Assembly (NCBI GenBank): GCA_025786725.1
Contig: JAHLTZ010000081.1
Span: 1-32,167, forward strand
Reading direction: 5' to 3'
Source: Syncephalis fuscata
Taxonomy: Eukaryota; Zoopagomycota; Zoopagomycetes; Zoopagales; Piptocephalidaceae
DNA: 32,167 bases
Numbering within the stretch: the first letter of the stretch is position 1; each line of letters begins with the position of its first letter. Both the position numbers and the translations under genes were made by a program. The notes under the pieces are model-generated. The model worked only from the letters and a program-made list of their open reading frames with translations. It did no database searches and was not told the DNA's origin. Shown piece by piece: positions 4,768 through 18,307 of the stretch.

Positions 4768-5666
4768 TTAGCGTCGTTCACTATACTGATTATTACTATT
4801 GCTGGTACTGCTATGATGACGTCGTTGATGGTGTGAGCTTGGTGATCTTGAACGAGAGCGTCGTCGTGATTTACTATGGCTTTCCCGTTCTTCGTGGTCA
4901 CGTGATCCACGTTGTGATCGTTTCTCGCGTACCGTTAATCGTTGTGCTTCTTCGAGTTCACGTCGAATGGCCCGACCTGGATGACGTAAATGCATAAAGT
5001 TGCAGAAACCACCACGATCACACTCGCCATTCTCGTATTGTCGACAGCAGGCCTCAGAGAAATCGGTTACAGGCGATAACTCCACGAATAATGGTCGACC
5101 TATTCAATAAATTAATTAGTATATATTAGTAAACATTCATATGTACTATATAACTTACCGGCATAGAATCGCTTGTTTAGTTCTTCCATGGCCCGTTGTG
5201 CGTCTTCTTCATATGCAAAGCGTACGTAAACATTACCGACTAAATGATCACCGACATTGTCGCATACACGCATATCTTCAACTTCGCCGTATTTGCAGAA
5301 TTCCATAAAAATATCCTCGTAGAACAGATCAAAGTGCGATTGCAATTGTTCTTTGTCTAGTTGGCAGTTAGGATCGAGTGCGGGATTCTGATAGAAGTTG
5401 GCAATAAGAACTGTTTGCGAAAAGTTTGGCTTGACATGTTTACGCGAACAGCGTTCGCCGTGTCGGCATGCACCGATCTTGAAGTAGAACGAGCAATTGA
5501 CTCTATGAGATGATTTAGCGGTTAGTCATAAAGCTTGAAATACGCGACGATTATATTTAATTATTCTAAAACAAATACTAATAATAACAGCAATCGCGAT
5601 CGCGATCAAAAAAGCTACTTACTTATCCTTTTCTGTACCGTAGATAGACGCAAGATGCTCGGCCAT
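4768..5666 (-). CDS. U2AF1: U2 snRNP auxiliary factor small subunit (U2AF35)
   Basis: Exons 5666-5623, 5502-5159 and 5099-4768 join to 239 residues, the usual family size. The protein binds the 3' splice-site AG as a heterodimer with U2AF65. It has a first CCCH zinc finger at 18-37 (C-x8-C-x5-C-x3-H, in [11 protein letters not shown]), a UHM/RRM-like domain (about 45-130), a second CCCH finger containing [20 protein letters not shown], and a C-terminal Arg/Ser tail with SRRRSRSRS. Ser34 of the first finger and the Arg-Gln of the second, both important for AG-flank preference in the human protein, are conserved. Introns are 120 and 59 nt. The gene converges with the helicase gene. Its presence about 5 kb from the microexon gene is probably coincidental. 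Confidence 0.96.
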
Positions 5667-6198: not shown

Positions 6199-8014
6199 TC
6201 AAGCATTCAAAATATCAAATGTCCCATCGCCATGGACAACAACTAACTTTTCACTATATAATTTTGCAATAGTTGTACAGTTTATAGTTCGAGTCCATAC
6301 TATACGTCCTTGGTCAGAACTATCGATTGGCAATAACTGGCCGAGATCTCTGGCGTCAAACATTGATTGGGACAAATCTTTTGACGAAGATTTCTCCAAT
6401 GCAAATAGCGATAATGAAGCTTTAAACGTGTGCATTGGATACCGCTCTTGCATTTTCCCATCATATACACTTATTAAACACATTCCTTCTGTATATGTTT
6501 CAGCCTTGATTATGGCATTCGAGCAATATGGAATGGTGATTTGATTTGATAATATTTTTTTGCACTGAGATTGGTCTTTTTGGACGTCAAATAATTCCCA
6601 TTGAACATGCATTAACCGATTGCTATTACTAAAAGCCGACAAACTTTGAGCAGTATAAGCTATATAAGTGGAGTCATACTCTATAGAGGTAGGCGCTAAT
6701 GTCCATATTAGCAATTGGCATTGGCCACTAGAAGCAAATTGAATACATGTACATGAGACATGGCTGCTTAATCTTGGCCCTTCTATCCACTGTTTTCCCA
6801 CCAAGTCAAGAAAATCAAACCTTTTGTGGAGATCTTGCATACTTTTAGTTCGTAAAAGGACATGGTTGTTGTAAATGCCAACTAAACAAGATACACCATG
6901 ACCTTCCCAACTTTGACTCTTGTCCTGAAGATAAATAATATTTGGAGATAAATAGCCAGCATCGGGCCATACTATAATAGCCTCTCGCAGGCTGCTTGTT
7001 CGTTCTTTTGCGGATTCAGTAGTCGAAGCAATAGATGGAGATTTGTCTAAATTGTTAGAAACCTCAAGCTTGTTTTCTTTAATATACTCCGCTTCCATTT
7101 CAGCTAAGTTTACTATTGTCAACTACATTAGTAAATACTACCGTAGTCACTAAAACTAATAATAAAAAATTACCTATTGGGTCGCCAATAGCCACACTGT
7201 TCACGTCATCATAAGTGTCCATAGAAATATGAGCCACAATGAATTGATTTACTCCATAGACTGAGTGGGTTTGCACTATTTTCTTGAATAAAGGCGATGC
7301 TAGAGAAGTAATCAATTCTCTTTCAATCAGCTGCTCGTCATTGTGTGTATTTTTTTGGTTAAAGAGATTGTACTGAATTGACCAAATTTTTGTTTCTTGT
7401 TTACACCACACCAACGTATACCAGCGATTTACTTCAACTAGCTCCAACTCAGAGTATTTATCAATTGGCAAATCGCATATCCACTTTTTGAATTGACCTG
7501 CCATAAGTTTGCGGTTGATATGTCGGCGCCAGCGATAGGCGTAAAACCAATTAATGGTATCAAGGTTAGAGACGGGTGGTAAATCGCCAACACGCAATAT
7601 AAGCTCATAATCATCAGTATCAATTGTTGTAATAGTATTGAAACTAAATACAGATGGTGGGTCGTCAACAGGTGATATAAGTTCATAATCAGCATCATCA
7701 GCTGTTATAACATTATATGTTGACAAATCTTCATGTGTTGTTTGGTTTACATTAAGTGAAGGCTTGTTTGATTCTTTTGCAGCATTAATGTGCCAGCTAT
7801 ACCATGTAAGCCAACTTTGTTCACGCTGATCACCTAGACAAAATTTGTATCTATATTGTTGTTCCCAATAATCAGGATGATCAACTATCATTTGATGAAG
7901 AAATCGACAGCACGTGGCAAAACGTACCACATCTCGCTCTTCCATAAAATTAAACAAATGCAATAAAACATCGTAGTTTTGCCAAAAGTACTTGTTATGA
8001 ATACTTGAAGCCAT
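6199..8014 (-). CDS. F-box-like protein, copy A, C-terminally truncated
   Basis: Exon 1 is 8014-7174 and exon 2 is 7112-6199, giving about 584 residues. The N terminus looks like a divergent F-box (LHLFNFMEERDVVRFATCC, then WEQQYRYKF, about 15-60). The rest is unrecognised and could be a substrate-recognition module. F-box proteins usually link substrates to SCF ubiquitin ligases; that role is inferred only from the N terminus. The 61-nt intron uses TACTAAT and the acceptor GACAATAG. A nearer TAG only a few bases after the branch site must be skipped, because it would lead into a stop. The protein is about 99% identical to copy B (15745-17713) but ends at DILNA. There copy B has CGA and this copy has TGA; homologous sequence continues downstream with a 1-nt deletion. 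Either a shortened functional protein or an early pseudogene. Confidence 0.72.
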
Positions 8015-10763
8015 GGTTAACTAGAAATAGCTACGTCAAAATTGTTATATGATAGACAGAATGGATAGCAGGAAGTGTAAGTAGGAAGAAAAAGACATGT
8101 ATGCCTTTGAGTTGTTTTTGTCCTATTTAAAGTAAAATGGTTACATAATAGCGCATATTTACAATATAAATATTTTTATATTTAATAAAAACCAATAATA
8201 ATCAGTATTATTATATATTATATGTAGTTTAGAAAGTATTTATGACAAATGTTTATTCAAATAGCTGTGTTACTCCTAAATAATCAAATAGTGTGATTTA
8301 AAATGTTGCTGCGCATCAACTGTAGTGGGTATATGATAAAATGACACTTTGGCTGTGGATAAACTACTACTATCAAGACGTATAAGCATCTAAATTTTTT
8401 AGATAGTATTTGGTATAATTAGATTGTTACAATTTCAAAGCCTAGATATTGTAAAAAGTGGCTAAGCAATAGGAAATTGAAGGAAGAGCAATGATAATTT
8501 AGTCGCAATAAAGCAATTTTAACTGTGTTCTACTTGATTTCACGGCGATTCAGTCAAAGTACAGCTACTATCAACTAACTGATACAGTAGCTTGCTTGTA
8601 AAATTCTAATAATTTATTTTGTATAAAATTTAATTAAAATTAGTAATATTTTTCTTATATTCTGATATAATTATCGTGGATATCGGGTTTAATGGAAGGT
8701 AGGCTTTTGATGTTTTTAATCTTGTTTTTATTTATACTAAAGGCATAATTGTAAACTAAATTCTAAACATATTTTTCTTCTTTTATTGCGCATCTTATTT
8801 TTGTTAATATATAACGAAATAGTTTGATTGTATTTTATGATTTTATGGACAGTGTATGTGATCACATTATTGTACCTTTAGCGATAAGGCAGCATATGAT
8901 ACAAATATTGTGACGTACAGAAAAAACGTTATAGATATTAAGGGGAAGGGGGTTGTGGTGGCCTAAACAGTCAACACGTCTTTTCTTGGGAGAAAAATGT
9001 TGGTTCGCTTAGTTTTAAATCTTGTTTTTAGAAAATGCGTTACGAAATCCTTCCGTAAAAGAAACGATTGATATTCCAACACGTAAGGAGAGCCACCAAC
9101 AGTTTCCGTTGTAAATGGCAGGTTCTGCGTTGCGCGCGGATAGATTCAAAATAAACCGTCTATTTTTCTATGGGTGGCAGGTAAATGCCGCAAATGCATG
9201 GTTAGGTTCCACGGGCCATTGTCTCGCTTAAACTAATAAATTCAAATTCAAATACCTACTCTTGCAAGCGTTTAAATAATTCTTGGAGTTATTGATTAAA
9301 TCAACGAGTGTGTAGATATAAATATAATTAAGAAACTCACAATGCGCTTGCAAATATTTTATGTACAAACAATTAGCATTACAGAGTATAGTGGCAATAA
9401 AATATCGCCTAATCATTAGCGTTTACCTATTTAATTTTATACAAGTAACTGTGCTATTACATAGACACTTTGTAGTTTTATTTAATGTTATGTACAATGC
9501 TTTCTGTTTGCTGCGCTTTATTTCTGTTTAAAGTTATTGTTCTATTTGCATCAGCAACAGCCAACTTTTAATAAACGCAATCCAGCTTAGCCTAACTATA
9601 GCGATTTGCTATATGTTAAACCAGTAAATCTTTGAGCTGTCAATTGTTTTCCATCGATTTCTGATTTGGCTTGTTCCTCTATATTCCATTTTGCTTAACT
9701 TGTCAGAATTGGTTTTTAGAAATATGGGCAGCACTTAGGCCTTGGATGATTACCTGTTAATATGCAATTCATTGACATTATGCACTCAAAATTGCTGGTA
9801 TTTGTCTAGGATTGTTGATGTGCCAAGCCTCCGTTTACATGTTACATTGCATAGAATTTAGGCAATAAAATTTATTTTATAAACGAAAACTAGCAACAGC
9901 AGTGGTCAGCTGGAATGTCTTATTATTAAAAATACCGTGATGAATTACAGCACAACAATACTTATCGTATAGTCGATTCCAGGTATTTTAGATTGGTCGC
10001 CATTTGAATGATGCCAGTTGCACAACATGTAGCATGATATGCCTGAATGTGATGCATTGTGAATTCAAAACAACGATTACCCCTGTAACAATAGGCATAG
10101 TGTCGAATGAAATGCATACATGTATTAATCAACACACCTTGTATAATTTAAAGAATTACAGCTGATTTATGTATGACAGTAAAAACCTGTATAAAAGACC
10201 AGTTTGATACATTAAACTTGTTTTGCATCAGTGTTATGTTCTATTTTTGTATGTATGCGGATAGTGAAGACCAAATCGGTAGAAATGGCAGCAAAGACAT
10301 CATTATCGTTTTCACGAAACCAAGCAATATACTTGTTTTTGCCAAATATTTAAATCGTGTAACAGAAGATACAGACTAATATGCATATTTTATCACATGT
10401 ACTGGGTTATTACCATTACTGTGTCATTTGTGCAAATGCCGAGAAAATTGAAGTAAAGGCTGGACAGGCTGAAATCAAGACTGGGAAGCATGATGTCACA
10501 CCATGAATCTATTGGTACACTCGCACCTCAAACCATGATTTGGATTGCTTTATTGGTTCATATTATACATCAATGGTATATCTCGTATACTGCAGTATAC
10601 CAGTATCTCAGCATAGCCGTAAGTTTAAATAGCTTGCAAAATATACACAACCAACTGCGATATCATCATCACATTCTACTTCTTACTAAACACACACTAC
10701 TCCTTACTTTATACCAACCACATTCTACTATCTCTCTTATTTGTTTAACAAGTCGACATCACC
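8015..10763. other. Gene-poor region between copy A and the microexon gene
   Basis: No convincing gene in 2.7 kb. The first ~115 bases match the region upstream of copy B and are probably its promoter. About 8306-8385 resembles 15160-15240 (shared cores gcgcatcaa and aaaatgacac), a second dispersed or duplicated piece. Small ORFs at 9228-9416 (-) and 10173-10379 (+) have no recognisable features. Confidence 0.5.
10619..10763 (+). promoter_or_regulatory. Likely promoter / 5' leader of the microexon gene
   Basis: The stretch before the ATG is C/T/A-rich and G-poor, as in leaders of strongly expressed fungal genes, with a TATA-like tttata at 10708-10713. A perfect donor GTAAGT at 10619-10624 and a tactaaac at about 10684 raise the possibility of an intron in the 5' leader. 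The start context accATGaag is good. Confidence 0.4.
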
Positions 10764-13700
10764 ATGAAGCTTTCCATTGCCGTCATCTGCACTATCGTTG
10801 TGGCTCTTGTAGCCAGTACGGTCATGGTGGATGCTAATCCAGCTTTAGTTCGTCGTGGTATGTTACAATAACAATAAATATGACATATTATTATGCTTAC
10901 TAACAGCATTTTTAAACAATTATTATAATAGATCGTAAGTGATATTGTATATTATTTTATTTTTATTTTGAAAGCTTGTGGATCCCTACTATATATAATT
11001 GCGAATTTGTACTGCTTCTTCGTTTCTGCTAAATAATGTGGCGTTTTTTGAAACCAAGTGGGCCGCCACATTTTTGCGTAAAGCCGGTCCTGTCAATCTC
11101 ACACTGGGGCCGCTGTATTAATTGACGCCTTACCAGAGCTCCATTTAATATGGCCACAGATGTATTGCTTGTCTATGACTCTACTGGCTTTGACCTTTGT
11201 TACAGGACCTTTTTACACTCAGTAATACCTAATTGCTGGCTATTGCTGTTTCACTTTCTTCATGGCTTTCCTTCTTGCTGTGCTTGTTTTGTTCATTTCT
11301 CAGTATCTGCTTCGCATTCCCACATCTTTCTACTGCATCCGGTATGGGTTGGCTATTTGAAATCATTGTACTTGTTCTTATTGCCTATTATTGACTATAT
11401 AATTGCTATTATTTTATTTTATTTGTTTTCTTAATACTATTATTGTCTCTGGCTGGGCTTTTCTGTCTGACTCCATTTACTCTGCGCTGCACCTATTACC
11501 TTACTTTTTGGATCGCTGATTGCAAACGCGCTTATACTTGTCTGCACCTTCCTATTTTGTTTTGGTTGGTATTTTGTACTGTTATTTCCACGTTCTCCAT
11601 TGCCATATCACTCTCGTCACTATATTCTGTTCTTTGCTGACTTGGCACTTTACGTCTTCCTTTTCTTCTACTGATATTGCTCGCTCGTCTTCTAGCAGCA
11701 TCTCTTTTTTCCAATTACTTGAATCTCCACCACTATCTATCCCTTTCGGTTGGCGGTAGTATTATATATTAACTAACTATGCACCAATTATATATCATGT
11801 ACTGTATTCATCAACAACTTGATACTAATAGGCTGTAAGTTATATTGTATATTAATTGATTACTTACTAATTACATGTTATGCATCATGTGCATCAATGA
11901 CTTAATACTAATAGGCAGTAAGTAGTATTGTATATTACTGGCTTATATATTAATTATATACCATGTATTACGTATATCAATAACTTAATACCATAGAGGG
12001 TAAGTTGCATTGTGCATCCACTGATTATGTGCTAATTATATACCATGTATTGTATCAACAACTTAATACTAATAGATTGTAAGTTGTATTGTATATTAAT
12101 TGAGCATTGACTAATCACATGTTATACACTATATGTATCAATAACTTAATACTGGTAGGCGGTAAGTAATATTGTATATTGCTGATTTATAAATTAATTA
12201 TGTGCGATGCACTGTGTGTATCGATAACTTGATGGAATAGTTGGCAAGTAACATTACATATTAACTAAATATACGCTGATTATATCAATATATTGCGTGT
12301 GTATTAATGACTTAATATAAATAGGCGGTAAGTTGTATTGTATATTAATTGAACATTAGCTAATTATATATTGTCTGTTGTGCATACCAATAACTTAATA
12401 CTAATAGGATGTAAGTAATATTGTATATTAATTGAGCACTGGCTAATCATATATTATGCACCATGTATATTAATAACTTAATAATAGGTCGTAAGTAGCA
12501 TTATATGTGCTGACTTGTAAATTAATTATATAACATGCACTGTGTCCATCAACAACTTAATATAATAGGTCGTAAGTGATATTATACATTAATTGAATAT
12601 AAACTAATCATGCAATATATACTGTATGTATCAACAACTTAATATTAATAGATCGTAAGTAGTATTGTATATTAACTATATCATTTACTAATTGTATCAA
12701 TTATTTAATATTAATAGAACGTAAGTGGTATTGTACATTATTGGACTATACATTAACTATGCTGTTTACTGATTGTACTAATTATTTAACATTAATAGAA
12801 GGTAAGTAGTATTGCGTATTAATTGGGTATACATTAACTGCTATTTACTGTATGCATTAACAACTAAATATAATAGGTCGTAAGTAATAGTATATATTAA
12901 CTGAATATACATTAACTATGCTATTGATTGATTGTACCAATTATTTGATATTAATAGCTGGTAAGTTGTATTGTGTATTAATTGACTATACATTAACTAT
13001 GCTATTTATTGCTGGTATCAATTATTTAATATCAATAGACCGTAAGTGATATTGTATATTAACTGAATATACATTAACTATGCTATTTACTGATTGTGTC
13101 AATTATTTAATATTAATAGATTGTAAGTAATATTGTATATTAGCTGACTATACACTAATTATAATATTTACTGATTGTACCAATTATTCAATATTAATAG
13201 CTGGTAAGTGACATTGTATATTAACTGGCTATACATTAAAAATGCTTTTTACTGATTGTACCAATTGTTTAACATTAATAGATCGTAAGTAATATTCTGT
13301 ATTAATTATACATTAACTATGTTATTTACTAATTATTTAACATTAATAGGTCGTAAGTGATATTGTATATTAAATTTCTAATCACTAATTATGTGCTATG
13401 CACTATGTGTATCAATTATTCATATTAATAGCTAGTAAGTAACATTACATATCAACTGACTGCTCACTAATTACGTGTTATGCACTGTATGCATCAACAA
13501 CCTTATTAATAGGCTGTATGTGAAATTTTGTATCAATTAACTATGTACTAATCACATGCCGTTTATTGTATGCATCAATAACTTAATATGATAGGCAGTA
13601 AGTAACATTGTATATTAACTGATTATGCATTGATTATACCAATTATTTAACATTAATAGAACGTAAGCAATATTGTGTATTAATTGACTATACATTAACT

Positions 13701-14394
13701 ATACTATTTACTGATGGTACCAATTATTTAATATTAATAGAACGTAAGTGGTATTGTACATTAATTAACTATATATTAACTGTAATACTTGCTGATGATA
13801 TCAATTATTTAATGTTAATAGAATGTATGTGAAAGTTTTGTATTAGTTGGTTATGTACTAATCACATACTATTTAATGTATGCATCAACAACTTAATATT
13901 AATAGGCAGTAAGTAGCAGTGTGTATTAACTAATTATTCACTGACTATATTCATGTACTTTGTACATTAACAACTTAATATAATAGAAAGTAGGTTATAT
14001 TGTATATTAACCGACTACACACTAATCATATACCATGTATCGTGTGTATCAACGACTTAATATAATAGACAGTAAGTTGTACTGTGTATTAATTAAACAT
14101 GCACTGATTATATACCATGTACTGCGTGTTAACAACTTAATATTAATAGTTGGTAAGTAATATTATGTATTAATTGAATATGAACTAACTACGTGCTATG
14201 TAATCTATCCATAAACAAATTAATGTTAGGTGAATGTAAGTGATATTGTATATTAATTGTCTATGAGCTAATCGCATGCTATTTACTGTGTGTGTGTCAA
14301 TGACTTAATATTAATAGGCTGTAAGTAGTATTGTATATTGATGGCTTATATATTAATTATATGACATATAATATCTTTATTTGCAAATACAGGA
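10764..14394 (+). CDS. Secreted Cys-rich peptide gene made of a leader exon and 33 microexons
   Basis: Exon 1 (10764-10857) encodes 31 residues: start MKLSIAVICT, hydrophobic core, then VDANPALVRR. Donor GTATGT at 10858. Then come 3-nt exons, each between TAG and a GTAAGT-like donor, starting at 10932, 11832, 11915, 11997, 12076, 12159, 12241, 12325, 12408, 12488, 12569, 12652, 12718, 12799, 12877, 12958, 13039, 13120, 13201, 13282, 13350, 13432, 13513, 13595, 13660, 13741, 13822, 13906, 13987, 14069, 14150, a 6-nt exon at 14230-14235, and 14318. The last exon starts at 14393. Joined, this is 198 nt and 65 residues. All 34 introns are phase 1. The microexon part gives 34 residues with Cys at 34, 37, 41, 55, 59 and 65; TGA (14320 plus 14393-14394) follows Cys65. 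An Arg-Arg site just before suggests Kex2-type processing. Role unknown: possibly an antimicrobial, signalling or effector peptide. No transcript evidence is available here. Confidence 0.8.
10858..10931 (+). other. First intron of the microexon gene
   Basis: A 74-nt intron with donor GTATGT, a perfect TACTAAC branch site at about 10899-10905 and acceptor TAATAG. The AG directly after the branch site (aacag) is too close to be used. Its last 20 bases (caattattataatag) resemble the ends of the array introns, so it is likely related to them. Confidence 0.75.
10955..11757. other. Unclassified insertion inside the second intron of the microexon gene
   Basis: The intron after the first microexon is 897 nt, against about 62-82 nt for the others. 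The extra ~800 bases differ in composition: pyrimidine-rich on the plus strand and more G+C than the flanks. They are bounded by array-like sequence (gatattgtatatta on the left, gtattatatattaac on the right). The segment holds a 9-bp inverted repeat (11035-11043 / 11064-11072) and a short minus-strand ORF (11532-11714) rich in Arg/Lys/Glu, but no recognisable transposase or polymerase. Best guess is a mobile-element fragment inserted into an array intron. At the right edge the sequence gcg-gta looks like the remnant of one more microexon and donor. Confidence 0.5.
11035..11072. repeat. Perfect 9-bp inverted repeat with 20-nt loop
   Basis: AATGTGGCG at 11035-11043 is matched by CGCCACATT at 11064-11072, capable of forming a hairpin. 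It lies in the foreign-looking insertion in intron 2 of the microexon gene. Function unknown. Confidence 0.6.
11835..14392 (+). repeat. Tandem array of 32 related introns, period about 81 bp
   Basis: Each unit begins with GTAAGT, a variable pair of bases, then close to ATTGTATATTAA(T/C)TG, and ends with one of two 3' modules followed by TAG. Type A ends near TATCAACAACTTAATACTAATAG and dominates 11835-12651 and 13850-14317. Type B carries ACATTAACTATGCTATTTACTGATTGTACCAA (in parts) and ends ATTTAATATTAATAG; it dominates 12655-13349 and recurs at 13598-13821. Intron lengths are 72-82 nt except for three shortened B copies (63, 65 and 62 nt, ending at 12717, 13349 and 13659). Between AG and GT there are always 3 nt (once 6), and these are the most variable bases of the unit (17 different triplets). 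Donor variants: GCAAGT at 12244, GTATGT at 13516 and 13825, GTAAGC at 13663, GTAGGT at 13990. The similarity implies growth by tandem and block duplication. Confidence 0.85.
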
Positions 14395-15744
14395 TAATTG
14401 ATGGTTTCAAGACATCAGCATTGGTAGTGCAATCAAACCACTATTTCAATACACTTTAGGTATATATTCGGTGAAAAGCAAGACCATTTGACAACTACGC
14501 CGTCCAGTCTATTTATATATCAAGTTTTGGCCAATGCTCCGGTTTATCCAGTCTTTAACCAATGGAATCGTTATTTTAGCAACAAGCTTGCAATTAGTTG
14601 TCCTTATTCAACTGTGCAAGCTTATAGTAATAAACTTATGGTTTCATCTTAACTATATACAATCAAATTGTTATATCTATAATCATGTTTTATTGATATC
14701 TAAACATTAACGATTATTAATTAAATAGTTAAATCAACAAAAAGTATAATTACGTTGTGTTAATTACAAGCATAAGTTGATATATGTATAGCAATATTAT
14801 TATTTAAATAGCAATTTATAAATGAATATTGTAGCGATACGCATTATTAATGAAGTCAAACACATTTTTTTGCAAATATATTGTAATATAAGACATTATC
14901 TAATAAATAAATAATAATGGACTGAAGGCCGGTATTTCATTATAAGCTGGATAAATAATGTGTATATTTATATTGAGCGTGTGCTATACAATCATCCGAA
15001 TACATATGCTGAGCAATTAAAAAGACATTCCTATTTCTAGGATCACTACAATATAATACTAGATTTATTATATACTACTATATAGCTCAAAATTTATTTA
15101 AAACAGACTTTTATTTAAAATAAGGGAGTTGGTTGTAAGTAATATAATCATATGAGCTACAATGCTATTGCGCATCAATTGTAGGCAATGTATGGTAAAA
15201 TGACACATTAATTGTAGGTAAATTATTACTATCAGAATAAATATGCACTCGGGTTTTCAAATATTATTTCAAGTACTTTTACTTTAACAAACTGATTATT
15301 TTATAAATTTCTTATTGCTATTTATTTTTTAATAAAAAATTACTTTAAATGACAATACTCAAAAAAATATTTTATCTTACAAATAATGCCAAGTAATGCG
15401 AAATCAATATAAAATAATGGATAAAAATAGCTTTGATAATCAAATTAATCTGGGTCCTAAAAGATAGATTAAATGAGTTTATTAGGTTATTCAAAACAAC
15501 AGCACTGCCATTAAGAATATGTTTTACAAAGCATTAAATTTTCAACATATACAAGAATAAGCTGTATAAGACATTTGCAATTAAAGTGTTTTATTTACAA
15601 TTTAAACGTTTGTATCAATTGAGTCAACAATAACGTTTAGTACAAAACATTTAAAATATGTCTTCACATTTTACTTTTAAAATATGAATTCATTATCTCA
15701 ATAATGCATAAAACCTTAATTTACTGTTTTCAGTTTATCAACTA
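14395..15744. other. 3' UTR of the microexon gene and AT-rich intergenic DNA
   Basis: No gene seen. The first ~250 bases are probably the last, untranslated exon of the microexon gene. About 15160-15240 resembles 8306-8385. About 15565-15740 matches the downstream flank of F-box-like copy A. Confidence 0.5.
14629..14634 (+). terminator. Candidate polyadenylation signal of the microexon gene
   Basis: AATAAA lies about 235 bases after the stop codon assembled at 14393-14394, preceded by a non-coding last exon. A further AATAAA occurs near 14902. Confidence 0.4.
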
Positions 15745-17713
15745 TCAAGAAGCTGATGGCCCATGAATAAGGCCGGTGTGCATGTCAATAAACCAATTTT
15801 GCCCGTTGTCTTTATCAAACATTGCACATAAGGATCCAATAAATGGGACTGGTTTCGAATTGAATGGACAATAAATTGAGCGTAATAAATCTCCATTTCG
15901 AGCATCGAATAGATCGAACATTGTATAATTCTGAGCGATGATCAGCTTTTCACTATATAATTTTGCAACAGCTGTACAGTTTATAGTTCGAGTCCATACT
16001 ATACGTCCTTGGTCAGAACTATCGATTGGCAATAACTGGCCGAGATCTCTGGCGTCAAACATTGATTGAGACAAATCTTTTGATGAAGATTTCTCCAATG
16101 CAAATAGCGATAATGAAGCTTTAAACGTGTGCATTGGATACCGCTCTTGCATTTTCCCATCATATACACTTATTAAACACATTCCTTCTGTATATGTTTC
16201 AGCCTTGATTATGGCATTCGAGCAATATGGAATGGTGATTTGATTTGATAATATTTTTTTGCACTGAGATTGGTCTTTTTGGACGTCAAATAACTCCCAT
16301 TGAACATGCATTAACCGATTGCTATTACTAAAAGCCGACAAATTTTGAGCAGTATAAGCTATATAAGTGGAGTCATACTCTATAGAGGTAGGCGCTAATG
16401 TCCATGTTAGCAATTGGCATTGGCCACTAGAAGCAAATTGAATACATGTACATGAGACATGACTGCTTAATCTTGGCCCTTCTATCCACTGTTTTCCCAC
16501 CAAGTCAAGAAAATCAAACCTTTTGTAGAGATCTTGCATACTTTTAGTTCGTAAAAGGACATGGTTGTTGTAAATGCCAACTAAACAAGATACACCATGA
16601 CCTTCCCAACTTTGACTCTTGTCCTGAAGATAAATAATATTTGGAGATAAATAGCCAGCATCGGGCCATACTATAATAGCCTCTCGCAGGCTGCTTGTTC
16701 GTTCTTTTGCGGATTCAGTAGTCGAAGCAATAGATGGAGATTTGTCTAAATTGTTAGAAACCTCAAGCTTGTTTTCTTTAATATACTCCGCTTCCATTTC
16801 AGCTAAGTTTACTATTGTCAACTACATTAGTAAATACTACCGTGGTCACTAAAACTAATAATAAAAAATTACCTATTGGGTCGCCAATAGCCACACTGTT
16901 CACGTCATCATAAGTGTCCATAGAAACATGAGCCACAATGAATTGATTTACTCCATAGACTGAGTGGGTTTGCGCTATTTTCTTGAATAAAGGCGATGCT
17001 AGAGAAGTAATCAATTCTCTTTCAATCAGCTGCTCGTCATTGTGTGTACTTTTTTGGTTAAAGAGATTGTACTGAATTGACCAAATTTTTGTTTCTTGTT
17101 TACACCACACCAATGTATACCAGCGATTTACTTCAACTAGCTCCAGCTCAGAGTATTTATCAATTGGCAAATCGCATATCCACTTTTTGAATTGACCTGC
17201 CATAAGTTTGCGGTTGATATGTCGGCGCCAGCGATAGGCGTAAAACCAATTAATGGTATCAAGGTTAGAGACGGGTGGTAAATCGCCAACACGCAATATA
17301 AGCTCATAATCATCAGTATCAATTGTTGTAATAGTATTGAAACTAAATACAGATGGTGGGTCGTCAACAGGTGATATAAGTTCATAATCAGCATCATCAG
17401 CTGTTATAACATTATATGTTGACAAATCTTCATGTGTTGTTTGGTTTACATTAAGTGAAGGCTTGTTTGATTCTTTTGCAGCATTAATGTGCCAGCTATA
17501 CCATGTAAGCCAACTTTGTTCACGCTGATCACCTAGACAAAATTTGTATCTATATTGTTGTTCCCAATAATCAGGATGATCAACTATCATTTGATGAAGA
17601 AATCGACAGCACGTGGCAAAACGTACCACATCTCGCTCTTCCATAAAATTAAACAAATGCAATAAAACATCGTAGTTTTGCCAAAAGTACTTGTTATGAA
17701 TACTTGAAGCCAT
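15745..17713 (-). CDS. F-box-like protein, copy B, full length
   Basis: Exon 1 is 17713-16873 and exon 2 is 16811-15745, joining to about 635 residues. It is nearly identical to copy A (6199-8014): only a handful of substitutions, for example KSTHNDEQ for KNTHNDEQ and AHVSMD for AHISMD, and the same 61-nt intron with the same skipped TAG. The divergent F-box is at about 15-60; the remainder is unrecognised. The C terminus continues about 55 residues past the point where copy A stops, including NWFIDMHTGLIHGPSAS at the end. The duplication covers roughly 15565-17830, including about 115 bases of likely promoter, so both copies may be expressed alike. An SCF ubiquitin-ligase adaptor role is inferred from the F-box-like N terminus only. 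Confidence 0.8.
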
Positions 17714-18307
17714 GGTTAACTAGAAATAGCTACGTCAAAATTGTTATATGATAGACAGAATGGACAGCAAGGAATGCAAGTAGAAAAAGGCCTTGTATGC
17801 CTTTTGAGTTGTTTTTATTCTATTTAAAGCATACCTGTTACACGACTATGTATGTCCGTTGAGGTACAACATTGTTTTTATTTGATTTATAAAATAAAGA
17901 GTGCAATTACAAAAGTGCAGTTAATTGCCAATAAAATTTAAGCAAATACTATTACCAAATATAATAAATGTAGATTATCCAGTTTTTTCCATACTAAAGA
18001 ACCATAGCTTATTTTGCAACTTGGCGATCTAATTATCAAATATATTTTAAAATAACATATTTACAAAAAAAGAGTTATCAGTTAAGGCTATTTCTTGGGA
18101 TCCATGTTAAGTAATATGCTTTCCAAATAAATGTTCTAATTAAAAAACCAAAATGCTTTATTATTATTTGTATTTACTATAAATATCAGGGCATTCATAA
18201 ACGTTGAAACTAAACCCATCACACACACAGCCTTTTAGTCTATTATTTTATAAGCACGCCAGCTAAACACCAGTATTTATAATTTATCGCTTTATCGTAT
18301 CATTAAT
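17714..18307. other. Divergent intergenic region, copy B / small secreted protein
   Basis: No gene seen. The left ~115 bases match the upstream region of copy A and are the likely promoter of copy B. The right end holds a TATA-like tattttataagc near 18243-18254 and a short A/C-rich leader for the secreted-protein gene at 18308. Confidence 0.5.

Follow-up and report, generated by a model that had tools for sequence, protein, structure and literature searches.

Tandem single-triplet exons in a predicted secreted-peptide gene family of the fungus Syncephalis fuscata

Can the mature part of a protein be encoded almost entirely in exons of one triplet each? The question is raised by positions 10764 to 14394 of a 32,167-nt contig of Syncephalis fuscata, the whole of which is termed the window. 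An earlier note on this DNA described a gene with a signal-peptide exon followed by 33 microexons, 32 of 3 nt and one of 6 nt, and a search based on splice signals and lengths returned the same structure. The locus is very probably a genuine spliceosomal gene whose product would be a small, cysteine-rich secreted peptide. It belongs to a large and fast-changing family, and stepwise splicing through intron definition is probable. As a gene model this is very likely correct, with its splicing predicted from sequence. That the gene belongs to a large family is a point the earlier note missed.

In the window gene, the signal-peptide exon is followed by 33 microexons, all 3 nt long but for a single one of 6 nt, and then by the last exon; the 34 introns that separate them total 3433 nt (median 78 nt). 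Joined, the exons give a coding sequence of 198 nt including the stop and a predicted product of 65 amino acids, MKLSIAVICTIVVALVASTVMVDANPALVRRDRCKDCVGGCRHQQGPDHSDRPSCKQQCKNIGEC. As had been claimed, this spliced frame contains no internal stop, its mature part has six ordered cysteines, and a TGA, split into T at 14320 and GA at 14393-14394, follows directly after the sixth. Exon 1 would encode the signal peptide plus a propeptide that closes with LVRR, and the microexons the mature peptide; the last exon would complete the stop codon and provide the 3ʹ untranslated region (UTR). With junctions in phase 1 and microexon lengths divisible by 3, every codon is divided 1+2 over adjacent exons. 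The units, each composed of an intron and a triplet, are tandem repeats with a period of about 81 bp. The 33 occurrences of TAG-NNN-GTAAGT reported in the earlier note come down to 27 on a strict count, all of them within the gene and none elsewhere in the window on either strand; the remaining five 3-nt sites have near-consensus donors (GCAAGT, GTATGT at two sites, GTAGGT and GTAAGC).

The motif is not confined to this gene. Across the 28.95-Mb assembly, TAG-N3-GTAAGT occurs 4287 times, compared with 302 for the reversed pattern that served as the control, and sites paired 60-90 nt apart number 2731 compared with 0. Only spacings of 3, 4 and 6 nt were tried; there is no excess at 4 (431 vs 531) and a small excess at 6 (494 vs 297). 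By subtraction of the control, the genome would hold about 4000 single-triplet exons. The last-acceptor motif, with at most one mismatch, is found 121 times vs 16 in the control, which suggests roughly a hundred arrays, an estimate only, as last acceptors do not account for every match. The tandem repetition of the units might be expected if the motif were not a splice signal at all and instead formed a DNA- or RNA-binding array or a satellite. This explanation is extremely unlikely, as both splice consensus sequences are present, the large excess falls at spacing 3 among the three tried, and the 3ʹ homology of the intronless genes described below begins at the predicted last junction or close to it. 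Spacing and open frames led to the rejection of a satellite or chance origin.

In total, 27 family genes were examined, consisting of 18 arrays, eight intronless genes and one, L048b, that ends at a locus edge; a weak exon-1 match at L041:3033 (52% identity) is excluded from all counts. Chains of exons were sought from splice signals and lengths only, with frame information not used. For this search, the strict 3-nt units found at these loci served to retrain the site matrices, thresholds were lowered, and exons of 3 and 6 nt were given a higher prior. Because this prior partly builds them in, the exon lengths are not independent evidence, which comes instead from the open frames compared with shuffles and from the cysteines. 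The search was run on 17 of the 18 arrays (L061 lay outside it) and yielded a chain in 14. In 12 of these 14, every microexon is 3 or 6 nt long (378 and 13, respectively, of 391) and the frame is open, ending -1 to +23 nt from the start of the last exon. Microexons number 33 in the window and L039, 27 in L041, 34 in L040, 24 in L045, 30 in L042, 34 in L043, 38 in L048, 21 in L046, 39 in L047, 49 in L052 and 29 in L058, and the introns between them have a 5-95% range of 74-80 nt. Of the 391 microexons, 335 have the donor GTAAGT and 382 have the acceptor TAG. Three further arrays each have peculiarities. L044 (G000:C2:593500-601471) is a near-copy of L045 in which the GT of the first donor is gone, such that it may not work, and a copy with the site intact exists. 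L060 is a diverged array gene in which a two-unit block (TTC, CTG) is repeated and whose start, read by hand, is rich in proline and valine, and L061 is a diverged array gene with a related signal peptide.

Reading frames and cysteines provide the independent test. Stop and shuffle statistics were taken from nine of the 12 clean arrays, one per near-identical pair; the chains of L051 and L059, which contain exons that are not multiples of 3, were excluded. The nine arrays contain 0 stops in 295 codons vs 18.6 expected from triplet shuffles, and the product of their shuffle probabilities is 10^-11.3. Six mature cysteines are present in nine of the 12 arrays, with seven in L048, eight in L052 and three in L046. 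The pattern C-x2-C-x3-C is found in ten of the 12, the window included, and is reached by 1-3% of the shuffles of each of those ten. Furthermore, in an alignment of 16 products (nine spliced and seven continuous, with L039, L043, L046, L051 and L059 left out and L047 trimmed by its last five residues), C34, C37, C41 and C59 in window numbering are invariant and other mature positions vary. The earlier note had looked to related strains for cysteines that persist while triplets change; the comparison was made on paralogs rather than strains, and the cysteines do persist.

The same peptide is also found without introns. Eight of the 27 genes (L049, L050, two in L053, and L054-L057) have the same signal peptide followed directly by a C-x2-C-x3-C peptide (8/8) that runs into the 3ʹ exon. 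Their post-coding sequence is 82-92% identical to the last exon of the window gene, with the homology starting at the second base of that exon in six of the eight, and upstream comparison shows a promoter common to array and intronless genes. On sequence, the intronless paralogs look like the predicted mRNA of the arrays. A HMMER profile was built solely from the seven continuous mature peptides, and the triplet order of each array was compared with 2000 shuffles. The window order beats 2000 of 2000 shuffles with or without HMMER composition correction. With the correction on, as the test was first run, the shuffles that equal or exceed the observed score number 0 for the window and L039, 12 for L048, 14 for L045 and L047, 68 for L046, 78 for L040, 108 for L043, 1528 for L042, 1773 for L058, 1801 for L041 and 1853 for L052. 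The correction was then switched off because real and shuffled orders contain identical triplets, giving 0 for the window, L039, L048 and L047, 1 for L045, 7 for L042, 16 for L040, 18 for L043, 22 for L052, 29 for L041, 35 for L046 and 163 for L058. Together, the paralog arrays, with their open frames and similar cysteine spacing, and the intronless paralogs support the claim of the earlier note that this is a real gene with 34 introns and a mature product encoded in microexons. Another possibility is that all microexons are skipped, joining exon 1 to the last exon, with the array acting as one large intron with recursive splice points. AG-N3-GT units do resemble recursive splice sites as these are characterized in parts of PMC8605326, but the product would stop one residue past LVRR, nothing would hold the triplet order stop-free or the cysteines in place, and the peptide is present in the intronless paralogs. 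Complete skipping is thus extremely unlikely.

Several results weigh against a working, spliced gene family. The open frame of the window gene is weak by itself, since 8.8% of its shuffles are also open. The exon-aligned frame is nearly stop-free too, with 2 stops in the nine arrays compared with 29 in the third frame; it is poor in stops because few triplets are stop codons (2 of 275), and the absence of stops is therefore meaningful only against shuffled order. Three arrays gave no chain (L044, where the first donor lacks GT; L060, where the 3ʹ end has diverged; and L058x, at a locus edge), and the chains of L051 and L059 are out of frame, although L059 re-read with another 6-nt exon, chosen with knowledge of the frame, has an open frame and six mature cysteines. 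C-x2-C-x3-C is absent from the products of L046 and L052; in L046, moreover, the mature part contains three cysteines and a match to the 3ʹ exon is lacking. In the profile test, the real order is not preferred in L041, L042, L052 and L058 with the correction on, and L058 remains weak with it off. Finally, between the window gene and L039, about 2.4 microexon changes are expected and 0 are seen, numbers too small to weigh alone.

Where change falls also bears on whether the arrays are maintained. Among 272 introns of nine arrays, the search itself imposed the donor's first G and the acceptor's AG; the remaining donor positions are near-invariant (T 0.97, A 0.98, A 0.95, G 0.98, T 0.97), as is the T of the acceptor TAG (0.98). 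The triplets are diverse, with 48 kinds among 275 in nine arrays, and the introns are 70-73% alike in the four arrays measured. Pairwise, microexons differ at 0 of 102 bases between the window gene and L039 (rest of introns, 63/2665), at 6 of 105 between L040 and L043 (67/1928) and at 26 of 120 between L047 and L048 (244/2292, with donors 7/240); the L047/L048 counts include shifted units. Related arrays also differ by gains and losses of whole units, as between L047 and L048, some of which may be sites missed by the chain.

The extent of the family is evident from its first exon. The exon-1 peptide has 322 candidate places in the genome, and all 150 of those scored match at E<=0.001, giving at least 150 places; the window gene itself carries the conserved MKLSIA...LVRR signal and propeptide exon. 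Its last exon is matched in 23 of the 26 genes searched, the window counted, and the match is missing in L046, L048b and L058x, the last two of which end at a locus edge. In the nr database, the window peptide has one match, a S. fuscata protein, and a family search with a method that reaches only relatives sharing short exact words found 11 matches at E<=1 among 165 candidates, all S. fuscata hypothetical proteins. One of these, P0001, is an intronless family member, and P0003, P0004 and P0010 contain cysteines; by eye, several of the 11 resemble unspliced readings. P0002 and P0005-P0008 show no cysteine pattern after LVRR and were perhaps read into introns or insertions (by eye), and P0006 resembles an open frame inside the intron 2 insertion of the window gene. 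No convincing relative was found in Pfam, where four families were each weakly matched by one of 16 members (best E 0.0011), or in PDB up to E 1, where the sole match was a big defensin at 0.53.

These proteins, and the state of some arrays, could suggest silent or decaying arrays, in effect a minisatellite made of intron units in dead genes, with the intronless paralogs doing the work. Damaged arrays exist, including L044 with its first donor lacking GT, and L046 and L051, which contain insertions and give short products; the unspliced look of several nr proteins concerns annotation, not expression. Decay, however, would not preserve 295 codons stop-free compared with shuffles, four invariant cysteines, or near-invariant splice sites amid introns only 70-73% alike, and it is very improbable as an account of the family.

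From the anatomy we infer how such a gene might be spliced and what it might do. A 3-nt exon can hardly hold U1 and the 3ʹ-splice-site machinery together. Because it is too small for both, intron definition with introns removed one at a time is probable, with one site probably used before the other is bound. Each splice would regenerate a 5ʹ splice site, NNN|GTAAGT, in a ratchet resembling recursive splicing that leaves one triplet behind at every step, and the ordered or recursive removal proposed earlier for the window gene fits this scheme. Arrays would lengthen and shorten by whole units of about 81 bp, with triplets changing and cysteines kept; because junctions are in phase 1 and exons are multiples of 3 nt, each 3-nt unit amounts to an insertion or deletion of one codon in frame. 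Syncephalis, a genus assigned to Zoopagomycota, parasitises other fungi, and the peptides, if secreted, likely act in contact with the host fungus.

The same arithmetic would permit combinatorial splicing, in which varying sets of microexons are skipped and a single gene yields a mix of related peptides, as skips of 3n keep the frame. Every microexon is 3 or 6 nt in 12 of the 14 chains, 265 of 285 single-exon skips in the nine arrays introduce no stop, and near-identical neighboring acceptors and donors should favor errors; variation through alternative splicing is described for proteins of schistosome micro-exon genes (MEGs) in portions of PMC10526429. In contrast, the intronless paralogs fix a single full-length peptide, and full inclusion preserves the cysteine spacing. 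Combinatorial splicing is unlikely, though distinctly less so than the rival explanations above. Since most single skips are stop-free, splicing errors would be mostly tolerated and a mixed pool of peptides is possible.

The family appears to have changed between array and continuous states. A tree of exon 1 and the 3ʹ exon, built from 22 of the 27 genes (those other than L046, L048b, L058x, L060 and L061), requires the state to change three times between array and intronless, three changes being forced by supported branches, and the intronless L049 pairs with the array L041 with support 100/99. Retrocopying is suggested by L049, L050, L056 and L057, in which an A-rich run closes the 3ʹ homology immediately past the poly(A) signal. 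Against simple retrocopies, the promoter is shared, the 3ʹ break recurs in the array gene L041, and about 1.1 kb of 3ʹ flank is common to L053-L055 and three array genes; for these reasons, switching in place, by intron loss mediated by complementary DNA or by array gain, seems as likely as retrocopying. Complete intron loss via spliced mRNA is a well-known route. It would itself be evidence of splicing here, though the switch may have run in either direction; the excerpted account in PMC8831610 infers the same route for a plant gene with a 1-nt microexon.

Features of the window gene, with positions in the window
Feature	Position	Strand	Basis or remark
TATA-like box TTTAAATAGC	10624..10633	+	sequence and upstream comparison; similar box in array and intronless paralogs; putative function
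Exon 1: signal peptide and propeptide, dibasic LVRR at end (possible kexin site), 94 nt, ends in phase 1	10764..10857	+	cleavage sites predicted
Intron 1, donor GTATGT	10858..10931	+	chain
Microexon 1 ATC	10932..10934	+	chain
Intron 2, 897 nt, inserted stretch of ~800 bp at roughly 10955-11755	10935..11831	+	chain and comparison
Microexon 2 GCT	11832..11834	+	
Microexon 3 GCA	11915..11917	+	
Microexon 4 AGG	11997..11999	+	
Microexon 5 ATT	12076..12078	+	
Microexon 6 GCG	12159..12161	+	
Microexon 7 TTG, donor GCAAGT	12241..12243	+	
Microexon 8 GCG	12325..12327	+	
Microexon 9 GAT	12408..12410	+	
Microexon 10 GTC	12488..12490	+	
Microexon 11 GTC	12569..12571	+	
Microexon 12 ATC	12652..12654	+	
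Microexon 13 AAC	12718..12720	+	
Microexon 14 AAG	12799..12801	+	
Microexon 15 GTC	12877..12879	+	
Microexon 16 CTG	12958..12960	+	
Microexon 17 ACC	13039..13041	+	
Microexon 18 ATT	13120..13122	+	
Microexon 19 CTG	13201..13203	+	
Microexon 20 ATC	13282..13284	+	
Microexon 21 GTC	13350..13352	+	
Microexon 22 CTA	13432..13434	+	
Microexon 23 GCT, donor GTATGT	13513..13515	+	
Microexon 24 GCA	13595..13597	+	
Microexon 25 AAC, donor GTAAGC	13660..13662	+	
Microexon 26 AAC	13741..13743	+	
Microexon 27 AAT, donor GTATGT	13822..13824	+	
Microexon 28 GCA	13906..13908	+	
Microexon 29 AAA, donor GTAGGT	13987..13989	+	
Microexon 30 ACA	14069..14071	+	
Microexon 31 TTG	14150..14152	+	
Microexon 32 GTGAAT, 6 nt	14230..14235	+	
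Microexon 33 GCT	14318..14320	+	
Last exon: GA of split TGA and 3ʹ UTR	14393..14655	+	82-92% identity to post-coding sequence of eight intronless paralogs; 3ʹ end approximate, predicted
Poly(A) signal AATAAA in last exon	14629-14634	+	

Intron 2 owes its length to the insertion, which is matched at five other places in the genome with 80-95% identity. A different inserted element is present in L048, L051 and L058x; in L048 and L051, it begins after TATTGTATATTA, as does the insertion in intron 2 of the window gene. Elsewhere in the window, a 1.9-kb duplicate containing an F-box-like gene (6247-8132 and 15946-17829, 98.5% identity) flanks the array gene on both sides. On the minus strand at 4768-5525 lie two open frames with CCCH zinc fingers, one additionally with an RRM, which presumably resemble the small subunit of U2AF, a 3ʹ splice-site factor. 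At 683-1219 there are tandem repeats whose periods are 33-39 and 120 bp, and no Rfam family matched the window at its gathering score.

It is fairly likely that these tandem codon-cassette arrays constitute a new gene architecture. Its repeat unit would be a triplet plus an intron, edited one amino acid at a time in frame by unequal exchange of 81-bp units, spliced stepwise, present in about a hundred genes with some 4000 single-triplet exons in a 29-Mb genome, and switched several times between array and continuous forms. If spliced as predicted, the window gene would take the use of microexons to an extreme, with a 198-nt coding sequence broken up by 34 introns and a mature peptide encoded at nearly one triplet per exon. 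With its thousands of copies and its intronless counterparts in the same genome, the family would then offer a natural test of how the spliceosome copes with exons that are too short for exon definition, and it suggests a route by which secreted peptides could vary through insertion and deletion of single codons. Moreover, with 11 relatives in nr vs at least 150 exon-1 places, this family may be largely missing or misread in public annotation, and similar genes may hide in other genomes.

Among the titles and opening abstract lines listed by a literature search, with preprints and most subscription papers outside its scope, there was no description of a single-codon exon-array architecture, and functional microexons are called previously undescribed in filamentous fungi in the available portion of PMC11121469. 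Very small exons are spliced in nature, with published extracts describing exons of 1 nt in APC11 and VPS55 (PMC8831610) and of 3 nt in Ncam and Drosophila TnT (PMC8042270). As far as these extracts go, however, such plant and animal microexons of 1-6 nt are isolated in ordinary genes rather than arranged in arrays that make a whole mature product. The ratchet points of Drosophila, in the sections of PMC8605326 that bear on them, likewise place an acceptor directly before a donor such that splicing regenerates a 5ʹ splice site; they differ in having long introns and zero-nucleotide exons, whereas S. fuscata would leave one triplet per step between introns of about 78 nt.

The closest known systems appear to be the MEGs of schistosomes and the bicycle genes of aphids. 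In extracts of PMC10526429, the 35 MEGs of Schistosoma mansoni have 10-20 very short exons of 3-81 bp and introns of 100 to almost 5000 bp. Like the S. fuscata genes, they belong to a parasite, encode secreted proteins in numerous short exons and are difficult to annotate automatically, and the window gene shares with them a signal-peptide exon followed by many very short exons. Unlike in the MEGs so described, neither mixed exon sizes nor long introns are found in S. fuscata, where 378 of 391 microexons in 12 arrays are 3 nt, the introns between them have a 5-95% range of 74-80 nt, and arrays consist of 21-49 microexons in a row, nearly all of one triplet, with tandem introns of about 78 nt. 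Bicycle genes, according to partial text of PMC9168663, have a mean of about 17 exons, and the megacycle gene, which encodes about 2000 amino acids, contains over 100 microexons. Like the S. fuscata family, these putative effectors change fast, and their numerous small internal exons are nearly all in a single phase; by comparison, the S. fuscata gene places its 34 introns in a coding sequence of 198 nt.

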